Shown here piece by piece: positions 5,785 through 40,206 of a stretch of DNA of 64,000 nucleotides; within the stretch, counting starts at the first letter, position 1, and each line of letters begins with the position of its first letter. This stretch comes from an uncultured Clostridia bacterium (GTDB lineage Bacteria > Bacillota > Clostridia > Oscillospirales > Acutalibacteraceae): the NCBI GenBank assembly GCA_927362715.1, contig CAKMIX010000008.1:1-64000 (forward strand). The letters run 5' to 3'. The translations under genes were made by a program, and so were the position numbers. The notes below the pieces were generated by a model, which was not told the DNA's origin, did not search any database, and was given only the letters and a program-made list of their open reading frames with translations.

Positions 5785-5793
5785 GACAGTACT

Positions 5794-6027
5794 GCGATAG
5801 AGGTGCGAAATGCATCAGTAGCGCGTTTTAGGCAGCCGACTGCCGCAAGAGCGTGTGAAAGGGCATTTTGCCGAAGACCGTGCATGTCGGTTGTGCGGCG
5901 GTTTGGGGGCGCATTGCGAAAGCTGCGTCACTGTCATCAGAATTTGGTGGAGTGCTATCGCAATCACAAAACGATTGCTGTGATTGCATCCCCTTTTCTG
6001 ATGACCGGTTTTTGACCGGTCTTTTTT
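5794..6027 (+). promoter_or_regulatory. lysine riboswitch (L box) with terminator
   Basis: The aptamer is closed by GCGATAG (5794-5800) pairing with CTATCGC (5955-5961). Inside it are the conserved L-box blocks AGAGGTGCGA at the 5' side, GCCGAAG near 5870 and TGGAGTGCTATC at the 3' side. It is followed by a hairpin at 5960-5987 that shares two bases with P1, then an intrinsic terminator: GACCGGT (6003-6009), ACCGGTC (6015-6021) and T6 at 6022-6027. Known L boxes stop transcription when lysine is bound. The element lies between a strong promoter and asd, so it should shut off the whole diaminopimelate/lysine operon when lysine is abundant. Confidence 0.93.
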
Positions 6028-11140: not shown

Positions 11141-11396
11141 AAACGCCCTCTGTTTGAACAGAGGGCGTAAATATACGCGGTACCACCTCATTCGCCGTTT
11201 CCTCACGAAAACGACCTTAGCGAGTGACCAACATCACTCTGCGACTAACGCTCGCGCACGGCAGGGCTTACTTGCTAATGCTTTTTTCCCCGCAGCTCAG
11301 GGATGTATTTCGAACAGGGCTTCGCGCTTTCTTACACCGACCGAAAGCTCTCTTTGCCGAAACGTCTGTTTTACTTCTTCCCGTCACAGCCGATAG
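11141..11396 (-). promoter_or_regulatory. T-box leader with tyrosine specifier, upstream of tyrS
   Basis: On the minus strand the leader carries the T-box sequence AGGTGGTACCGCG (11188-11176), whose bulge pairs with the uncharged tRNA end. It is followed by a terminator: ACGCCCTCTGTT/AACAGAGGGCGT at 11143-11168 plus a T-rich run. In stem I the context GAAATACAT places the specifier codon TAC (Tyr) at 11307-11305. Known T-boxes read through when the matching tRNA is uncharged, so tyrS rises on tyrosine starvation. Confidence 0.92.
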
Positions 11397-34634: not shown

Positions 34635-35528
34635 CTATGCCGCTCCCTGCATCAAAAGATCCTCATATGCCGCGTCAAATCCGTCCACCGCGCCGTCACC
34701 GTTGACGTCCATACGAAAATGCGTTTCCTCTGAAAGCTCCGCACGTACCGCCGACTGTTCGGCGATTTGCTCAAAATCAACGGAATTCACGTCATTGTCC
34801 GCGTCCACGTCCCCCTTGAGCACGATCACAACAGAAAAGTAAACACGGTTTTTCCCGCTGCGAACGGTAACTGTCGTCATACCCGGAACGTCGGATTGAA
34901 ATCCGCTTAAAGCATATTCCGAAAGCACCTCCTGCGCGCCGCCGGGATAAGCTGCTGTTACGCGCAGTCCTTCTGTATTCAGCGCATCCCCGCAAAAATA
35001 AAATTTTTGAGTCGGCGCGCTTTCCAATATAAGTGAGGTTTGGGAAATGTCGACATAAACCGGGTCTGCGGTAAGACCCCCGATTGGATCATCGTTTGTG
35101 TCGATAGCTTCACATACCTCCAAAGAAAACGCCGCCGTGCCGACCGCACCCTCCGCGATTTGGAAAACAATTTCACAAATCGGTTCATCATTGGTCAGTA
35201 TATCTTCCGCAACGGTCGCAAAAGCGATCGCTACGCTTCCGTTCCCGGTAGGTTCCGCCAAAGCAATACCACCGCAGTCGGAAACCGAACTGCTGTCATA
35301 CCGCAAAAGCGTATCATCGTAATGCAGCAAAAGCGAAAAGCCGCCGAAATTTCTGTTTTCTTCCGCGTAAACACGCAGGCGTACGATCCCGCCGTCTTCA
35401 ACAGCGCCCACAGAAAGGGAAAAACCGTTGTCAGCCGCGCCCGAGGGAAAAAGACAGGCAAAACACAAAATCAAGATACAAAGAAAAAAAGCGGTCAACG
35501 CTGCAAAGCCTTTTCGAAAACGCGCCAT
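34635..35528 (-). CDS. secreted cohesin-Ig-dockerin protein
   Basis: A 297-residue exported protein. The signal peptide (about 1-32, MARFRKGFAALTAFFLCILI) is followed by a cohesin-like beta domain (about 35-160) with LRVYAEENRNFGGFSLLLHY and ICEIVFQIAEGAVGTAAFSL. A bacterial Ig-like segment (about 165-235) has LRVTAAYPGGAQEVLSEYAL. A C-terminal type I dockerin (about 238-295) shows two calcium-loop repeats, GDVDADNDVNSVDFEQI and DVNGDGAVDGFDAAYED. There is no catalytic domain, so it looks like an adaptor that can both bind a dockerin and be bound by a cohesin. AGGAGAAG lies before the ATG. Confidence 0.78.
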   Translation of the reverse strand: MARFRKGFAALTAFFLCILILCFACLFPSGAADNGFSLSVGAVEDGGIVRLRVYAEENRNFGGFSLLLHYDDTLLRYDSSSVSDCGGIALAEPTGNGSVAIAFATVAEDILTNDEPICEIVFQIAEGAVGTAAFSLEVCEAIDTNDDPIGGLTADPVYVDISQTSLILESAPTQKFYFCGDALNTEGLRVTAAYPGGAQEVLSEYALSGFQSDVPGMTTVTVRSGKNRVYFSVVIVLKGDVDADNDVNSVDFEQIAEQSAVRAELSEETHFRMDVNGDGAVDGFDAAYEDLLMQGAA

Positions 35529-35559
35529 AATTGCTTCTCCTACGCTGCAAAATAAAAAA

Positions 35560-36048
35560 TCAATACCCTTTCGCACCACTCAAGGATTCATCATTCTCGA
35601 TCCATTTCTGAACATTGATGATGCGGTATTCGTCTTTGGTGTCTCGAATGATCACGTGCATAATGCCGGCATTGATGACCTGCCGCTTGCACATGGGGCA
35701 GCTGCTGGCGCTTGCCACATATTCACCGGAGTCGCACTCTTTCCCGACAAGATACAAGGTACTTCCGAGCATCTCTTTTCGAGAGGCACTGATGATCGCA
35801 TTGGCTTCGGCGTGAACGCTGCGGCACAGCTCATACCGCTCGCCGCGCGGGACATTGAGCTGCTGACGCACGCAGTAATTGAGATCAGTGCAGTTTTTTC
35901 TGCCGCGCGGCGTGCCGTTGTACCCCGTTGAGATCACTTCATCGTTTTGTACGATCACAGCGCCGAAGTGTCGGCGCAGGCAGGTGCTCCGCTGAGAAAC
36001 CATTTCTGCAAGGTCAAGATAGTAATTGATTTTGTCCCGTCTCTCCAT
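35560..36048 (-). CDS. dCMP deaminase family protein (ComEB-like)
   Basis: A 162-residue zinc-dependent cytidine/deoxycytidylate deaminase. The zinc and catalytic motif is RSVHAEANAIISA (His-Ala-Glu) and the second zinc site is SSCPMCKRQVINAG. The GYNGTPRGRKNC block is typical of the dCMP deaminase/ComEB group. It makes dUMP for thymidylate synthesis. The ATG at 36048 follows GGGAGTGA; an upstream ATG at 36057 is less well placed. Confidence 0.92.
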   Translation of the reverse strand: MERRDKINYYLDLAEMVSQRSTCLRRHFGAVIVQNDEVISTGYNGTPRGRKNCTDLNYCVRQQLNVPRGERYELCRSVHAEANAIISASRKEMLGSTLYLVGKECDSGEYVASASSCPMCKRQVINAGIMHVIIRDTKDEYRIINVQKWIENDESLSGAKGY

Positions 36049-36118
36049 GCTTTTCACTCCCGAAGCTATTTTTTATTATTGTAGCATATCTAAGCCTGCG
36101 GCACAAGCAAAATTTCAC

Positions 36119-36146
36119 AAAAAAGGACGCTCTAAACAGAGCGCCC
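36119..36146 (-). terminator. terminator downstream of the tandem rpoD genes
   Basis: On the minus strand GGGCGCTCT (36146-36138) pairs with AGAGCGTCC (36133-36125), with one G-U pair, and runs into a T6 tract. It closes the rpmE-to-rpoD transcription unit. Confidence 0.85.
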
Positions 36147-36154
36147 GTTGGAAA

Positions 36155-37252
36155 TCAATCTAAATAATCTTTTAGCTTTTTGCTGCGGCTTGGGTGGCGC
36201 AGCTTGCGCAGCGCTTTTGCTTCGATCTGCCGGATGCGCTCGCGCGTGACGCCAAACGCACTGCCAACTTCTTCAAGTGTGCGCGGATGCCCGTCCTCTA
36301 AGCCGAACCGCAGGGAAAGTACCTTGGCTTCCCGCCGCGTCAGCGTTTTGAGCACCTCGGAAAGCTGTTCCTTTAAAAGTGTCATGGAGGCTGCATCTGC
36401 AGGCGCCAGCGCGTCTTCATCCGGGATAAAGTCGCCGAGATGGCTGTCCTCCTCCTCGCCGATGGGCGTTTGCAGGGAAACCGGTTCCTGCGAAACGCGC
36501 AGAATCTCACGCACCTTGTCCACCGGCATATTCAGCTCTGCTGCGATCTCCTCCGCCGTCGGGTCGCGCCCGTTTTTGTGCAGCAGCTGCGTGTTCGTCT
36601 TTTTGACCTTGTTGATCGTTTCAACCATGTGTACGGGGATGCGGATGGTACGCGCTTGATCGGCTATGGCACGTGTAATCGCCTGACGGATCCACCACGT
36701 TGCGTAGGTCGAGAATTTGAACCCCTTTGTGTAGTCGAACTTGTCCACAGCTTTAATAAGCCCCAAATTCCCCTCCTGGATCAGATCGAGAAACTGCATG
36801 CCGCGCCCGACGTACCGTTTTGCAATGCTTACGACCAGTCGAAGATTCGCTTCCGCGAGACGCTGCTTGGCCTGCTGGTCGTTTTCACTGATGCGCATGG
36901 CAAGCTCGATTTCTTCCTCCGGCGTCAGCAGCGGCACGCGGCCGATCTCTTTGAGATAGACCTTAACGGGATCGTCCATGGCGGCCGTGCGGTTTTCCGA
37001 CTCGGCAGCGGCAGCCTCCTGCCCTTTGGGCATCTCGCTGTCGAAATTCAGATCTTCCAGCACCGAATCGCCCATGTCATCCACGATTTCGATATTCTGT
37101 GCTTCGATGGTCTCATACAGGCGGTCGAGGTCTTCCATATCGACGTCCATTTCCATAATGACTGCGTCGATTTCCTGTGTCGTCAGTTTGCCGGCTGCTT
37201 TCCCCTTCTCTAAAAGCGTCTGCAAAGACGTTTTCTTATCGTTCTTATCCAT
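36155..37252 (-). CDS. rpoD: RNA polymerase sigma factor RpoD, downstream copy
   Basis: A 365-residue principal sigma factor with a short clostridial-type region 1. Region 1.2 is [17 protein letters not shown]. Region 2 includes [20 protein letters not shown] and [19 protein letters not shown]. Region 4.2 is [20 protein letters not shown]. All core-binding and promoter-recognition blocks are intact, so it should be functional. It is the second of two rpoD genes in tandem after dnaG. The copies are identical through a 791-bp core but differ in the first 16 residues and at several region 3.2-4 positions: PADAASMT here against [13 protein letters not shown] against THREA, SAFG against SEFG, and the end [12 protein letters not shown]. 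Confidence 0.95.
36405..37195. repeat. 791-bp exact direct repeat, copy in the downstream rpoD
   Basis: This block is identical base for base, as read by eye, to 37528-38318 (offset 1123). It covers most of the coding region between residue 20 and region 3.2. Outside it the two genes differ at many positions, including synonymous ones. Confidence 0.9.
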
Positions 37253-37268
37253 ATTATCTCCTTACACC

Positions 37269-38375
37269 TTATGTAAAATTATCCACATAATCCTTCAGCT
37301 TTTTGCTTCGAGTCGGGTGGCGCAGCTTGCGCAGCGCTTTTGCTTCAATCTGCCGGATTCGCTCACGTGTGACACCGAATTCACTGCCGACCTCCTCGAG
37401 CGTGCGCGGATGCCCATCCTCTAAGCCGAACCGCAGGGAAAGCACCTTGGCTTCCCGATGCGTCAGCGTTTTGAGCACCTCGGAAAGCTGCTCTTTCAAC
37501 AGCATGCGCGAAGCGGCATCCTCAGGAGCCAGCGCGTCTTCATCCGGGATAAAGTCGCCGAGATGGCTGTCCTCCTCCTCGCCGATGGGCGTTTGCAGGG
37601 AAACCGGTTCCTGCGAAACGCGCAGAATCTCACGCACCTTGTCCACCGGCATATTCAGCTCTGCTGCGATCTCCTCCGCCGTCGGGTCGCGCCCGTTTTT
37701 GTGCAGCAGCTGCGTGTTCGTCTTTTTGACCTTGTTGATCGTTTCAACCATGTGTACGGGGATGCGGATGGTACGCGCTTGATCGGCTATGGCACGTGTA
37801 ATCGCCTGACGGATCCACCACGTTGCGTAGGTCGAGAATTTGAACCCCTTTGTGTAGTCGAACTTGTCCACAGCTTTAATAAGCCCCAAATTCCCCTCCT
37901 GGATCAGATCGAGAAACTGCATGCCGCGCCCGACGTACCGTTTTGCAATGCTTACGACCAGTCGAAGATTCGCTTCCGCGAGACGCTGCTTGGCCTGCTG
38001 GTCGTTTTCACTGATGCGCATGGCAAGCTCGATTTCTTCCTCCGGCGTCAGCAGCGGCACGCGGCCGATCTCTTTGAGATAGACCTTAACGGGATCGTCC
38101 ATGGCGGCCGTGCGGTTTTCCGACTCGGCAGCGGCAGCCTCCTGCCCTTTGGGCATCTCGCTGTCGAAATTCAGATCTTCCAGCACCGAATCGCCCATGT
38201 CATCCACGATTTCGATATTCTGTGCTTCGATGGTCTCATACAGGCGGTCGAGGTCTTCCATATCGACGTCCATTTCCATAATGACTGCGTCGATTTCCTG
38301 TGTCGTCAGTTTGCCGGCAGCCTTACCTCTTTCCAAAAGTGCAGTGACAACTGATTTTTTATTCGTATTCTCCAT
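37269..38375 (-). CDS. rpoD: RNA polymerase sigma factor RpoD, upstream copy
   Basis: A 368-residue principal sigma factor, the first of two tandem copies, 34 bases after dnaG and 16 bases before the second rpoD. Its N-terminus [18 protein letters not shown] differs from [18 protein letters not shown] in the other copy. Regions 1.2, 2 and 3 are identical to the other copy. Region 4 has [20 protein letters not shown] and [20 protein letters not shown], and the protein ends [19 protein letters not shown] sits at the start of the helix-turn-helix that contacts the -35 element, so the promoter preference of the copies could differ slightly. Position in dnaG-rpoD makes this the likelier ancestral gene. 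Confidence 0.95.
37528..38318. repeat. 791-bp exact direct repeat, copy in the upstream rpoD
   Basis: Partner of 36405-37195. Identity begins at GCCAGCG and ends at GCCGGC in both copies, then falls off sharply on both sides. Confidence 0.9.
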
Positions 38376-38409
38376 ATTCTGTCCTCACACAAAATAATAA
38401 GCTCCGAAA

Positions 38410-40176
38410 TCAGTTCGGGCGAAAGAGCTTTAAGAAATCAGCATCGGAAAGCGCCGCCGGATCTTCAAGCCCGGACTTAGCCTTTTCCTGCGCCAACACG
38501 CGGATACAATCCAGACACTCCTCGGGCGTGTCGGCAAGATTCGGGATGAGCGTCTGAATGGCGGCGACAGCGCTTTTTTCTTCAGCGGTGAACGAATCCT
38601 CCAACATGGAAAGCGAAAAATGCCCATGTTGTGAAATACAGCCCGCAACAGCATCAAACACGCGTGCGTTAAAGGCTGTCACGAAATTTTCAGTCTTTAC
38701 TTCTTCCTTAATTTGACTGAAAAACTCCGGATTATGCATAAAAGACGCCAGCAGCGTTTCTTCCGCTTTTGCTGCGCGCAAATGCTTTGCACGTTCGGGA
38801 TTCACCGTATCCACCGCTTTTTGTGCGGGAGCGGAAAGCTCGCGGATGTCACGCAGTCGGTTTTGGGTTTTACGCTTCACATTGCCGCTGCGGATCGTCT
38901 TTGTTCTTGACAGGATCGCATCTTTAGAGACAGAAGTTTCTTCCGCAAGACGCGCGGCATAAATATCGCGTTCTACAGGACTTGCTACGTCGGCAAGCAC
39001 TTGGCAGGCATCCTCCAAAAAAGCGGATTTCCCGTCCGAGGTGGAAACATCGTGTGCGGAACGCGCCTGCAAAATACGATATTCCACATCGTTTGCCGCA
39101 TCATTCAACAGCGCGCGGAAACGTTCAGGCCCATGCGTTTTAATGATCTCATCAGGATCTTTGCCGCCCTGCATACGGATGACTTTCACATGAAGCGTCG
39201 TCTTTTCAAACACGGAAAGCGCACGGCGTACTGCCTTTTGACCGGCCTCATCATTGTCGTAGCAAAGCAGGACTTCTGAGGTGTACCGAGACAGCAGTGA
39301 CGCCTGCTGCTCGGTCAACGCCGTACCCAAGCCTGCAACAGCATTGTCAAAACCCGCCTGGTGGAGCGCCACCACGTCCATGTTCCCCTCACACAAGATC
39401 AGGTTTCCGGCTTTGGACTTGCGTGCAAAATTCAGGGCAAACAGGTTTTCACCTTTTTTGTAGATCAGCGTATCGCTTGTATTAACGTACTTGCGCGGCG
39501 CACCGCTGACAAGCGCACGCCCGCTGAAAGCCAAAACATTGCCGCGCAAATCTATGATCGGGAACATGACACGTTCGGAGAAAGCATCATAATAGCTTTT
39601 GGAGCCGCCGCGCTCACGCATACGCAGCAAATTGGCTTCATACAGTTCACGGTCGGAAAATCCCTCATGGTTTAAGTACCGGCGCAGGTTTTCCCAACCG
39701 GGGGGCGCAAACCCAAGCCCGAATTTTCGAATTATTTTATCCGTTAACCCGCGTTCGTGAAAATAGGCAAGCCCCGCCTCACCCAAAGGAGAATACAGGG
39801 TATTATGAAAATAGCGCGCGGCAAGGCGGTTCGCCTCAAACATCCTGCGCCGCTTTTCATACAGCCCCGCGTCATAACCGCTGTCCTGCGGAACGGCCAG
39901 CCCGACACGGTCCGCAAGCAAACGGACCGCCTCGGTGTAATCTAAATTTTCGATATTTTTAATAAAGGTGATCACATCGCCGCCGTTACCGCAGCCGAAG
40001 CAATAATACGACTGTGTTTCGGGGTAAACGGTGAAGGACGGCGTTTTCTCATTGTGAAACGGACAAAGCCCCGTTAAGATTCGTCCGCGGCGTTTAAGGG
40101 TCACATAAGACGACGCCACGGACTCCATATCTGCACGCGTGCGAAGCTCCGACAGAAAATCCTCCGAAAAAGCCAT
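38410..40176 (-). CDS. dnaG: DNA primase
   Basis: A 588-residue primase that makes RNA primers for replication. The N-terminal CHC2 zinc site is CPFHNEKTPSF with YYCFGCGNGGD (residues about 36-66). The RNA polymerase/Toprim core has ALNFARKSKAGNLILCEGNM, LTEQQASLLSRY and LCYDNDEAGQKA. The C-terminal helicase-binding region follows about residue 430. The ATG at 40176 has AGAGGTGA upstream; the alternative GTG at 40185 lies in that site. It precedes rpoD, the classic macromolecular synthesis gene order. Confidence 0.95.
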   Translation of the reverse strand: MAFSEDFLSELRTRADMESVASSYVTLKRRGRILTGLCPFHNEKTPSFTVYPETQSYYCFGCGNGGDVITFIKNIENLDYTEAVRLLADRVGLAVPQDSGYDAGLYEKRRRMFEANRLAARYFHNTLYSPLGEAGLAYFHERGLTDKIIRKFGLGFAPPGWENLRRYLNHEGFSDRELYEANLLRMRERGGSKSYYDAFSERVMFPIIDLRGNVLAFSGRALVSGAPRKYVNTSDTLIYKKGENLFALNFARKSKAGNLILCEGNMDVVALHQAGFDNAVAGLGTALTEQQASLLSRYTSEVLLCYDNDEAGQKAVRRALSVFEKTTLHVKVIRMQGGKDPDEIIKTHGPERFRALLNDAANDVEYRILQARSAHDVSTSDGKSAFLEDACQVLADVASPVERDIYAARLAEETSVSKDAILSRTKTIRSGNVKRKTQNRLRDIRELSAPAQKAVDTVNPERAKHLRAAKAEETLLASFMHNPEFFSQIKEEVKTENFVTAFNARVFDAVAGCISQHGHFSLSMLEDSFTAEEKSAVAAIQTLIPNLADTPEECLDCIRVLAQEKAKSGLEDPAALSDADFLKLFRPN

Positions 40177-40206
40177 GGCCGTCACCTCTTTTCCAAATCA
40201 ACAAAA

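Follow-up and report, generated by a model that had tools for sequence, protein, structure and literature searches.

Tandem rpoD genes behind dnaG with a homogenised core and conserved copy-specific ends in an uncultured Clostridia bacterium and two related species

The principal sigma factor of bacteria is usually regarded as single-copy, and serves as a marker gene. In the window, that is, the whole stretch of 64,000 nucleotides analysed from the genome of an uncultured Clostridia bacterium of the family Acutalibacteraceae (G000; 2.17 Mb, 38 contigs, 98.98% complete), two complete rpoD genes follow dnaG, as originally predicted, encoding proteins of 365 aa (A) and 368 aa (B) that each contain all sigma-70 regions. 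In transcription order B is the copy adjoining dnaG and A lies downstream; the minus-strand order is dgt-dnaG-B-A-dcd, the dCMP deaminase gene (dcd) being located beyond a terminator-like hairpin. The features of the locus, together with three triple loci found in the same family, are collected in Table 1.

Table 1. Features of the dnaG-rpoD locus in the window, and triple rpoD loci of other genomes (locus coordinates).
Feature	Position	Strand	Remarks
dgt		minus	upstream of dnaG in the window
dnaG (DNA primase)	38410-40185	minus	ORF; directly 5' of rpoD in the fetched loci
leader of rpoD_B	38376-38409	minus	without the genus-typical TACATA; SD-like GTGAGGAC
rpoD_B	37269-38375	minus	copy adjoining dnaG; 368 aa; C-terminus KDYVDNFT; ORF, RpoD equivalog score
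copy-specific B head	38319-38375	minus	residues 1-19
identical core within rpoD_B	37528-38318	minus	791/791
copy-specific B tail	37269-37527	minus	end of region 3, region 4, NFT extension
leader of rpoD_A	37253-37280	minus	AATTTTACATAAGGTGTAAGGAGATAAT; overlaps the last B codons (NFT stop); duplication junction
rpoD_A	36155-37252	minus	downstream copy; 365 aa; C-terminus KDYLD; ancestral-like ends
copy-specific A head	37196-37252	minus	residues 1-19
identical core within rpoD_A	36405-37195	minus	791/791
copy-specific A tail	36155-36404	minus	
terminator-like hairpin with T run	36125-36146	minus	3' of rpoD_A
triple rpoD locus, G094	L150 5681-8993		
triple rpoD locus, G215	L148 5331-8681		
triple rpoD locus, G295	L149 5048-8380		

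With 577.7 bits (A) and 575.6 bits (B), the two proteins exceed the cut-off of 572 bits set for the NCBIfam RpoD equivalog model NF006666, and Pfam regions 1.1, 1.2, 2, 3 and 4 scored above cut-off in both; moreover, the pair occupies the position behind dnaG that rpoD has in single-copy relatives. The two genes are separated by a spacer of 16 bases, for which the terminator scan listed no minus-strand terminator-like site, and a weak site with a stem of 5 pairs lies across the dnaG stop ahead of rpoD_B (38404-38418). A hairpin-like sequence with a T run is present at the site 3' of rpoD_A in the related genomes G019, G012, G025 and G451 as well, with different letters. A sigma-70 promoter scan returned 6 sites where shuffles averaged 4.2, nothing above chance; its minus-strand sites were two overlapping ones inside dnaG (39734-39763), and it gave none in the dnaG-B or B-A spacer. 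It is likely that a single mRNA carries both rpoD_B and rpoD_A.

The original prediction of an exactly repeated core was confirmed: the two segments match at 791 of 791 bases with an offset of 1123. The N-terminal 16 residues, claimed to be divergent, differ at 10 positions, and the 3' flanks are identical at 207 of 250 bases. The statement that regions 3.2-4 differ holds for the linker and region 4, but most of region 3.2, its finger stretch, lies within the identical core; the first residue difference past the core is residue 285. Along the 365 shared codons, A and B differ only in codons 2-19 and 283-364; over the whole of region 2 and in the recognition helix stretch the two proteins are identical. 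When only codons varying between G000 and G012 were considered, the copies of G000 differed at 0/122 codons of the core and 44/74 of the ends (Fisher 3e-24). At varying codons the corresponding values were 44/138 and 48/76 in G019 (Fisher 1e-5), and 33/122 and 38/74 in G012 (Fisher 7e-4). This contrast between core and ends is far beyond chance, and the 791-base exactness of G000 alone could have been sharpened by assembly.

The leaders point to the way in which the tandem may have arisen. Among the 27 single-copy leaders of the genus examined (out of 34 single-copy genomes with an rpoD match), 20 have TACATA ahead of the ribosome site, and this leader often reads TTTACATA..GTGAAGGAG; leaders of this kind before rpoD are widespread in the genus. 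In the tandem genomes TACATA is found before A in 3/3 and before B in 0/3, and single-copy relatives have, between dnaG and rpoD, a leader similar to that of rpoD_A. In G000 the codons with which B ends, AAT TTT ACA TAA (NFT and stop), are also the beginning of the A leader, so the repeated unit appears to be leader plus rpoD, and the NFT extension would stem from translation of B continuing, after loss of its original stop codon, into the duplicated leader of A. The ribosome site is TAAGGAG for A and GAGGAC or GAGGAG for B, which suggests that B may be translated less than A.

A search of 39 genomes of the genus, 37 of which had an rpoD match at E <= 1e-100 (none in G013 and G452, and a partial one in G032), gave two rpoD matches in three, G000, G019 and G012. 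This figure is a lower bound, since the single copies come from drafts, where a near-identical tandem could collapse. The order dgt-dnaG-B-A-dcd is common to the three genomes. Had relatives shown flanks as similar as the core, the notion of a converted core would have been contradicted, and this did not occur: the A and B cores are 94.2% identical in G019 and 95.6% in G012, and the flanks 61-86%. As these cores differ between copies, the tandems of G019 and G012 cannot be the collapse of one gene. The genomes G025 and G451 have a single rpoD, A-like at both ends, and the A tail is identical to theirs at 81/83 and 82/83 residues, respectively. A species tree from dnaG, dgt and dcd (12 genomes, 3468 columns) gave ((G000,G019),G012),(G025,G451) at 100/100. 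Since G025 and G451 have one A-like rpoD, the simplest history would be one duplication on the stem of G000, G019 and G012. In the core tree G025 and G451 stand beside G000 and G019 with G012 outside (76.5/81), and in the tail tree they fall with the A copies (85.1/58); given this discordance, an older duplication followed by loss of B in G025 and G451 is an alternative history.

In the core tree, built from 15 copies, the pair of G012 grouped together (100/100), as did the four copies of G000 and G019 (99.7/99). A clade of B cores was rejected (delta lnL 199, AU p about 1e-48) and so was one of A cores (delta lnL 195, AU p about 1e-51). Thus, in the comparison of core and flank phylogenies that had been proposed, cores cluster by species and ends by copy. 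Within the core, silent divergence between A and B is 0 in G000, 0.27 in G019 and 0.17 in G012; the tail values for these genomes are 0.78, 0.87 and 0.65, respectively. Silent core divergence of G012 from G000 and G019 reaches 1.07-1.31; because divergence between species is this high, the core is not slow but homogenised within lineages. The two G012 cores are 95.6% alike against 84.0-84.4% to G000, paralogues being closer than orthologues; this relation is less sharp for G000 versus G019, as cores from these two genomes are 94.4-95.2% alike, close to the value of G019 A versus B.

Site patterns over all six copies told the same. Sites that split by copy number 15 (head 5, core 0, tail 10), so homogenisation did not extend over the whole gene, and those that split by species number 82 (head 0, core 70, tail 12; Fisher 1e-10 for ends versus core). 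With silent sites only, the ends have 2 copy and 12 species sites and the core 0 and 59, a weak contrast (p 0.035). The G000 core alternates between A-like and B-like where the G019 copies differ; since this may reflect later G019 changes only, we name no conversion donor in G000.

The private ends are strongly conserved at the protein level. From residue 283 to the end, the three species are identical at 83/83 residues in A and at 86/86 in B; A and B tails are alike at 76/83 residues in each genome, and the same 7/83 differ everywhere (A/B: 285 A/E, 290 M/R, 291 T/M, 306 R/H, 332 A/E, 355 S/T, 364 L/V). B also carries the C-terminal NFT, absent from A. H306 and V364 are absent from all the other 79 copies in the alignment. 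The structures 7ckq and 7l7b are among the three best sequence matches, and aligning with offset +6 to the 371-residue SigA of 7ckq, presumably that of B. subtilis, places the seven residues at 291, 296, 297, 312, 338, 361 and 370. The heads are less conserved, with 16-18/19 residues shared within a copy between species. Amino acid-changing sites make up 8/10 of the copy-pattern sites of the tail against 0/12 of the species-pattern ones (p 1.4e-4), or 6/8 against 0/11 by codon (p 0.001). Silent tail sites mostly follow the species (12 against 2 by copy), and amino acids track the copy; saturation of silent sites weakens the power of this test. The pattern suggests that purifying selection preserves two versions of region 4.

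The tail tree unites the three B tails (98.3/85 in one run, 92/97 in another). In AU tests on the nucleotide tail (258 columns), grouping by species was not rejected for the G012 pair (delta lnL 12, p 0.17) or for G000 with G019 (delta lnL 14, p 0.16), and neither was a single clade of the six tandem tails (p 0.36); the pairing of the two G000 copies was (p 2e-6). For this reason our argument is built on the fixed residues and the site patterns. As a separate observation, a comparison of G000 with G019 gave silent changes at 7 of some 65 sites in the B tail and at 20 of some 63 in the A tail (p 0.005); silent sites thus look better conserved in the B tail, perhaps because of an overlapping signal for A.

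The original prediction had also held a second principal sigma in tandem to be rare, which was not borne out in this family. From an even draw of 398 family genomes, 368 matched at E <= 1e-80 and at least 24 had two or more rpoD matches, a lower bound with at most five candidates scored per genome. Of the 23 besides G000, three (G117, G177 and G255) have the copies on different contigs and their loci were left unfetched; the other 20 were fetched and all (20/20) have the copies adjacent behind dnaG, making, with G000, 21/398 genomes and 12/135 genera. Tandems were also found in other families of the order, in G042 and G051 among 23 such genomes. Three near-complete rpoD genes lie in a row behind dnaG in three genomes of genus g60. 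The second copies of G252 and G148 are distant from RpoD (45-46% identical), and in G428 the copies are parted by a divergent sigma-like ORF (L139 5781-6800), 29% identical to RpoD, with Pfam regions 2 and 4 above cut-off. A literature search on tandem or duplicated principal sigmas in one open-access library did not give this locus among the matches listed.

Tandem rpoD genes of the genera g60, g69 and g114 cluster by copy, without core homogenisation, and other tandem pairs mostly cluster by genome. A core identity of 100% was found only in G000 among the compared pairs, followed by G012 and G019 and then by G346 (core 85%, tail 67%). The upstream copies of G346 (L135 5250-7466) and G145 (L137 5492-7728), from genera g39 and g111, have odd region-4 tails in common. 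Their protein tails group together (97/95), and a grouping of their upstream cores was rejected (AU p 5e-62 by nucleotide, 0.002 by protein). By nucleotide the upstream tails were ungrouped (p 0.34 when held together), as were the two G346 copies in the core (p 0.28 when held together), and the branches are long. This second case of core homogenisation is suggestive only, and the tails may be shared through convergence.

The tandem has an origin common to three species, its core has been homogenised and its tails are conserved; core trees, site patterns and tail proteins from these species support the idea that both copies were retained and that the core was converted recently. We consider it probable that an old duplication on the stem was followed by repeated homogenisation of the core, with the private ends under selection and B as a specialised second housekeeping sigma. 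According to this history, a single rpoD with its own leader would have been duplicated in tandem behind dnaG, most simply in the ancestor of the three species; downstream A would have retained the ancestral leader, head and region 4, and upstream B would have gained three residues at its end, a different head and seven substitutions spread over the linker and region 4. Recombination between the copies, either gene conversion or unequal crossing-over and loss, would have repeatedly homogenised the middle lineage by lineage, purifying selection holding both versions of the ends. Core polymerase should be bound in the same manner by both proteins, and so should a common set of -10/-35 promoters; what may set A and B apart is dose, or the partner touched by region 4 or region 1.1, which could be an anti-sigma, a regulator or the beta flap. 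Recombination readily deletes tandem repeats, so the long-term retention of this one would indicate that both copies are needed.

Conversion tracts need homology on both sides and are therefore expected to fail at the ends of a repeat; redundant copies kept for dose, with the middle converted (A/B core identity is 94-100% in the three genomes) and the ends drifting beside unique sequence, could thus give a similar picture, and this effect could account for part of the end divergence. As a full account we find it unlikely: the tail proteins are unchanged (83/83 and 86/86) over a silent divergence above 1 between G012 and the others, and a purely neutral effect is hard to sustain when silent tail sites track species (12 against 2) and amino acid-changing ones the copy (8 against 0), a point that saturation weakens. 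We regard as very unlikely that short-read collapse of the cores made the exact identity, or even the tandem, unreal in G000. The 791 identical bases exceed short-read length, assembly graph simplification can merge near-identical paths, and the G019 cores are just 94.2% alike; but a tandem with copy-specific ends and core differences is present in the assemblies of G019 and G012, so that only the exactness in G000 would be affected. Recent tandem duplications arising independently in each species would explain why core trees cluster the copies by species, and the nucleotide tail alone does not reject that grouping; nevertheless, 10 tail and 5 head copy-specific sites, NFT and the leader junction are common to the three species, so repeated identical origin is not credible and this scenario is extremely improbable.

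As for function, different promoter preference had been suggested for the two proteins, which found no support, since the recognition helix is identical, as is all of region 2; a private regulator contact, a flap contact or dose appears likelier. The genome encodes Spo0A (154 bits), a sigma that passes one NCBIfam SigG model (416 versus 372 bits) and misses another (411 versus 457), and another sigma factor that is SigF-like, under cut-off; the lineage may therefore sporulate. B could then serve in stationary phase or sporulation, with a region 4 that would be altered near the surface of sigma A used by Spo0A, as might be expected from the Spo0A and SigG-like factor and from the C. difficile SigA2, listed for stationary phase with a SigH promoter in a table of PMC7438776. 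This role is distinctly unlikely, as B lies between dnaG and A with no sigma-70 minus-strand site in either spacer and our literature search for Spo0A contact residues on sigma A gave no match; nothing links either copy to the sporulation factors of G000. Returning to a specialised housekeeping role for B, we tentatively put forward, as an idea open to considerable doubt, that a common module for polymerase binding and -10 recognition is combined with private region-4 and region-1.1 modules, giving two holoenzymes on the same promoters with different regulators, and that dnaG-rpoD is a recurrent birthplace of such pairs in the family.

Other observations were made in the window. At 36078-36106, TTGTGC-17-TACAAT was noticed by eye; it has an extended -10 (TGCTACAAT) and lies beyond the terminator, ahead of the dCMP deaminase gene. 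The TATGCTACAATAA stretch is kept in G019, G012, G025 and G451. The protein encoded at 34635-35579 has a Big_3 domain and a type I dockerin, which hints at a cellulosome-like assembly. A lysine riboswitch (plus strand, 5790-5965) and a T-box leader (minus strand, 11158-11396) scored above the gathering score.

A long-lived pair in which the core is homogenised and region 4 is frozen in two versions would point to the sigma surface that selection wants twofold, and the seven tail residues are named as candidates; the conflict between core and ends offers a natural test of conversion against selection. Besides, recurrent tandem rpoD genes behind dnaG could mislead rpoD-based phylogeny and short-read assembly.

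Among known systems, A and B are like RpoD/SigA group 1 sigmas in their sigma-70 regions, equivalog score and dnaG-adjacent site, but two complete tandem copies with a common core and copy-specific ends are present here. Several RpoD-like sigmas per genome are also found in Streptomyces (HrdA-D) and among the group 2 sigmas of cyanobacteria, which are dispersed and diverged throughout, with a single principal copy. Concerted evolution is described in PMC6053082 as a closer resemblance among paralogues of one species than among orthologues, for which recurrent gene conversion is held responsible; 26 genes are reported there, and the words 'sigma' and 'rpoD' are absent from that main text. The rpoD core resembles those cases, its paralogues being more alike than orthologues, but homogenisation is limited here to that part of the gene, each copy having its own ends. 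Another clostridial genome with two group-1 SigA proteins is that of C. difficile, where PMC7438776 gives CD1455 and CD1498, which are 65% and 56% identical to SigA of B. subtilis, and assigns SigA1 to 'exponential growth' and SigA2, with its SigH promoter, to 'stationary phase'; those genes are at separate loci, whereas the copies of G000 are adjacent in tandem, 16 bases apart, and have an identical core.
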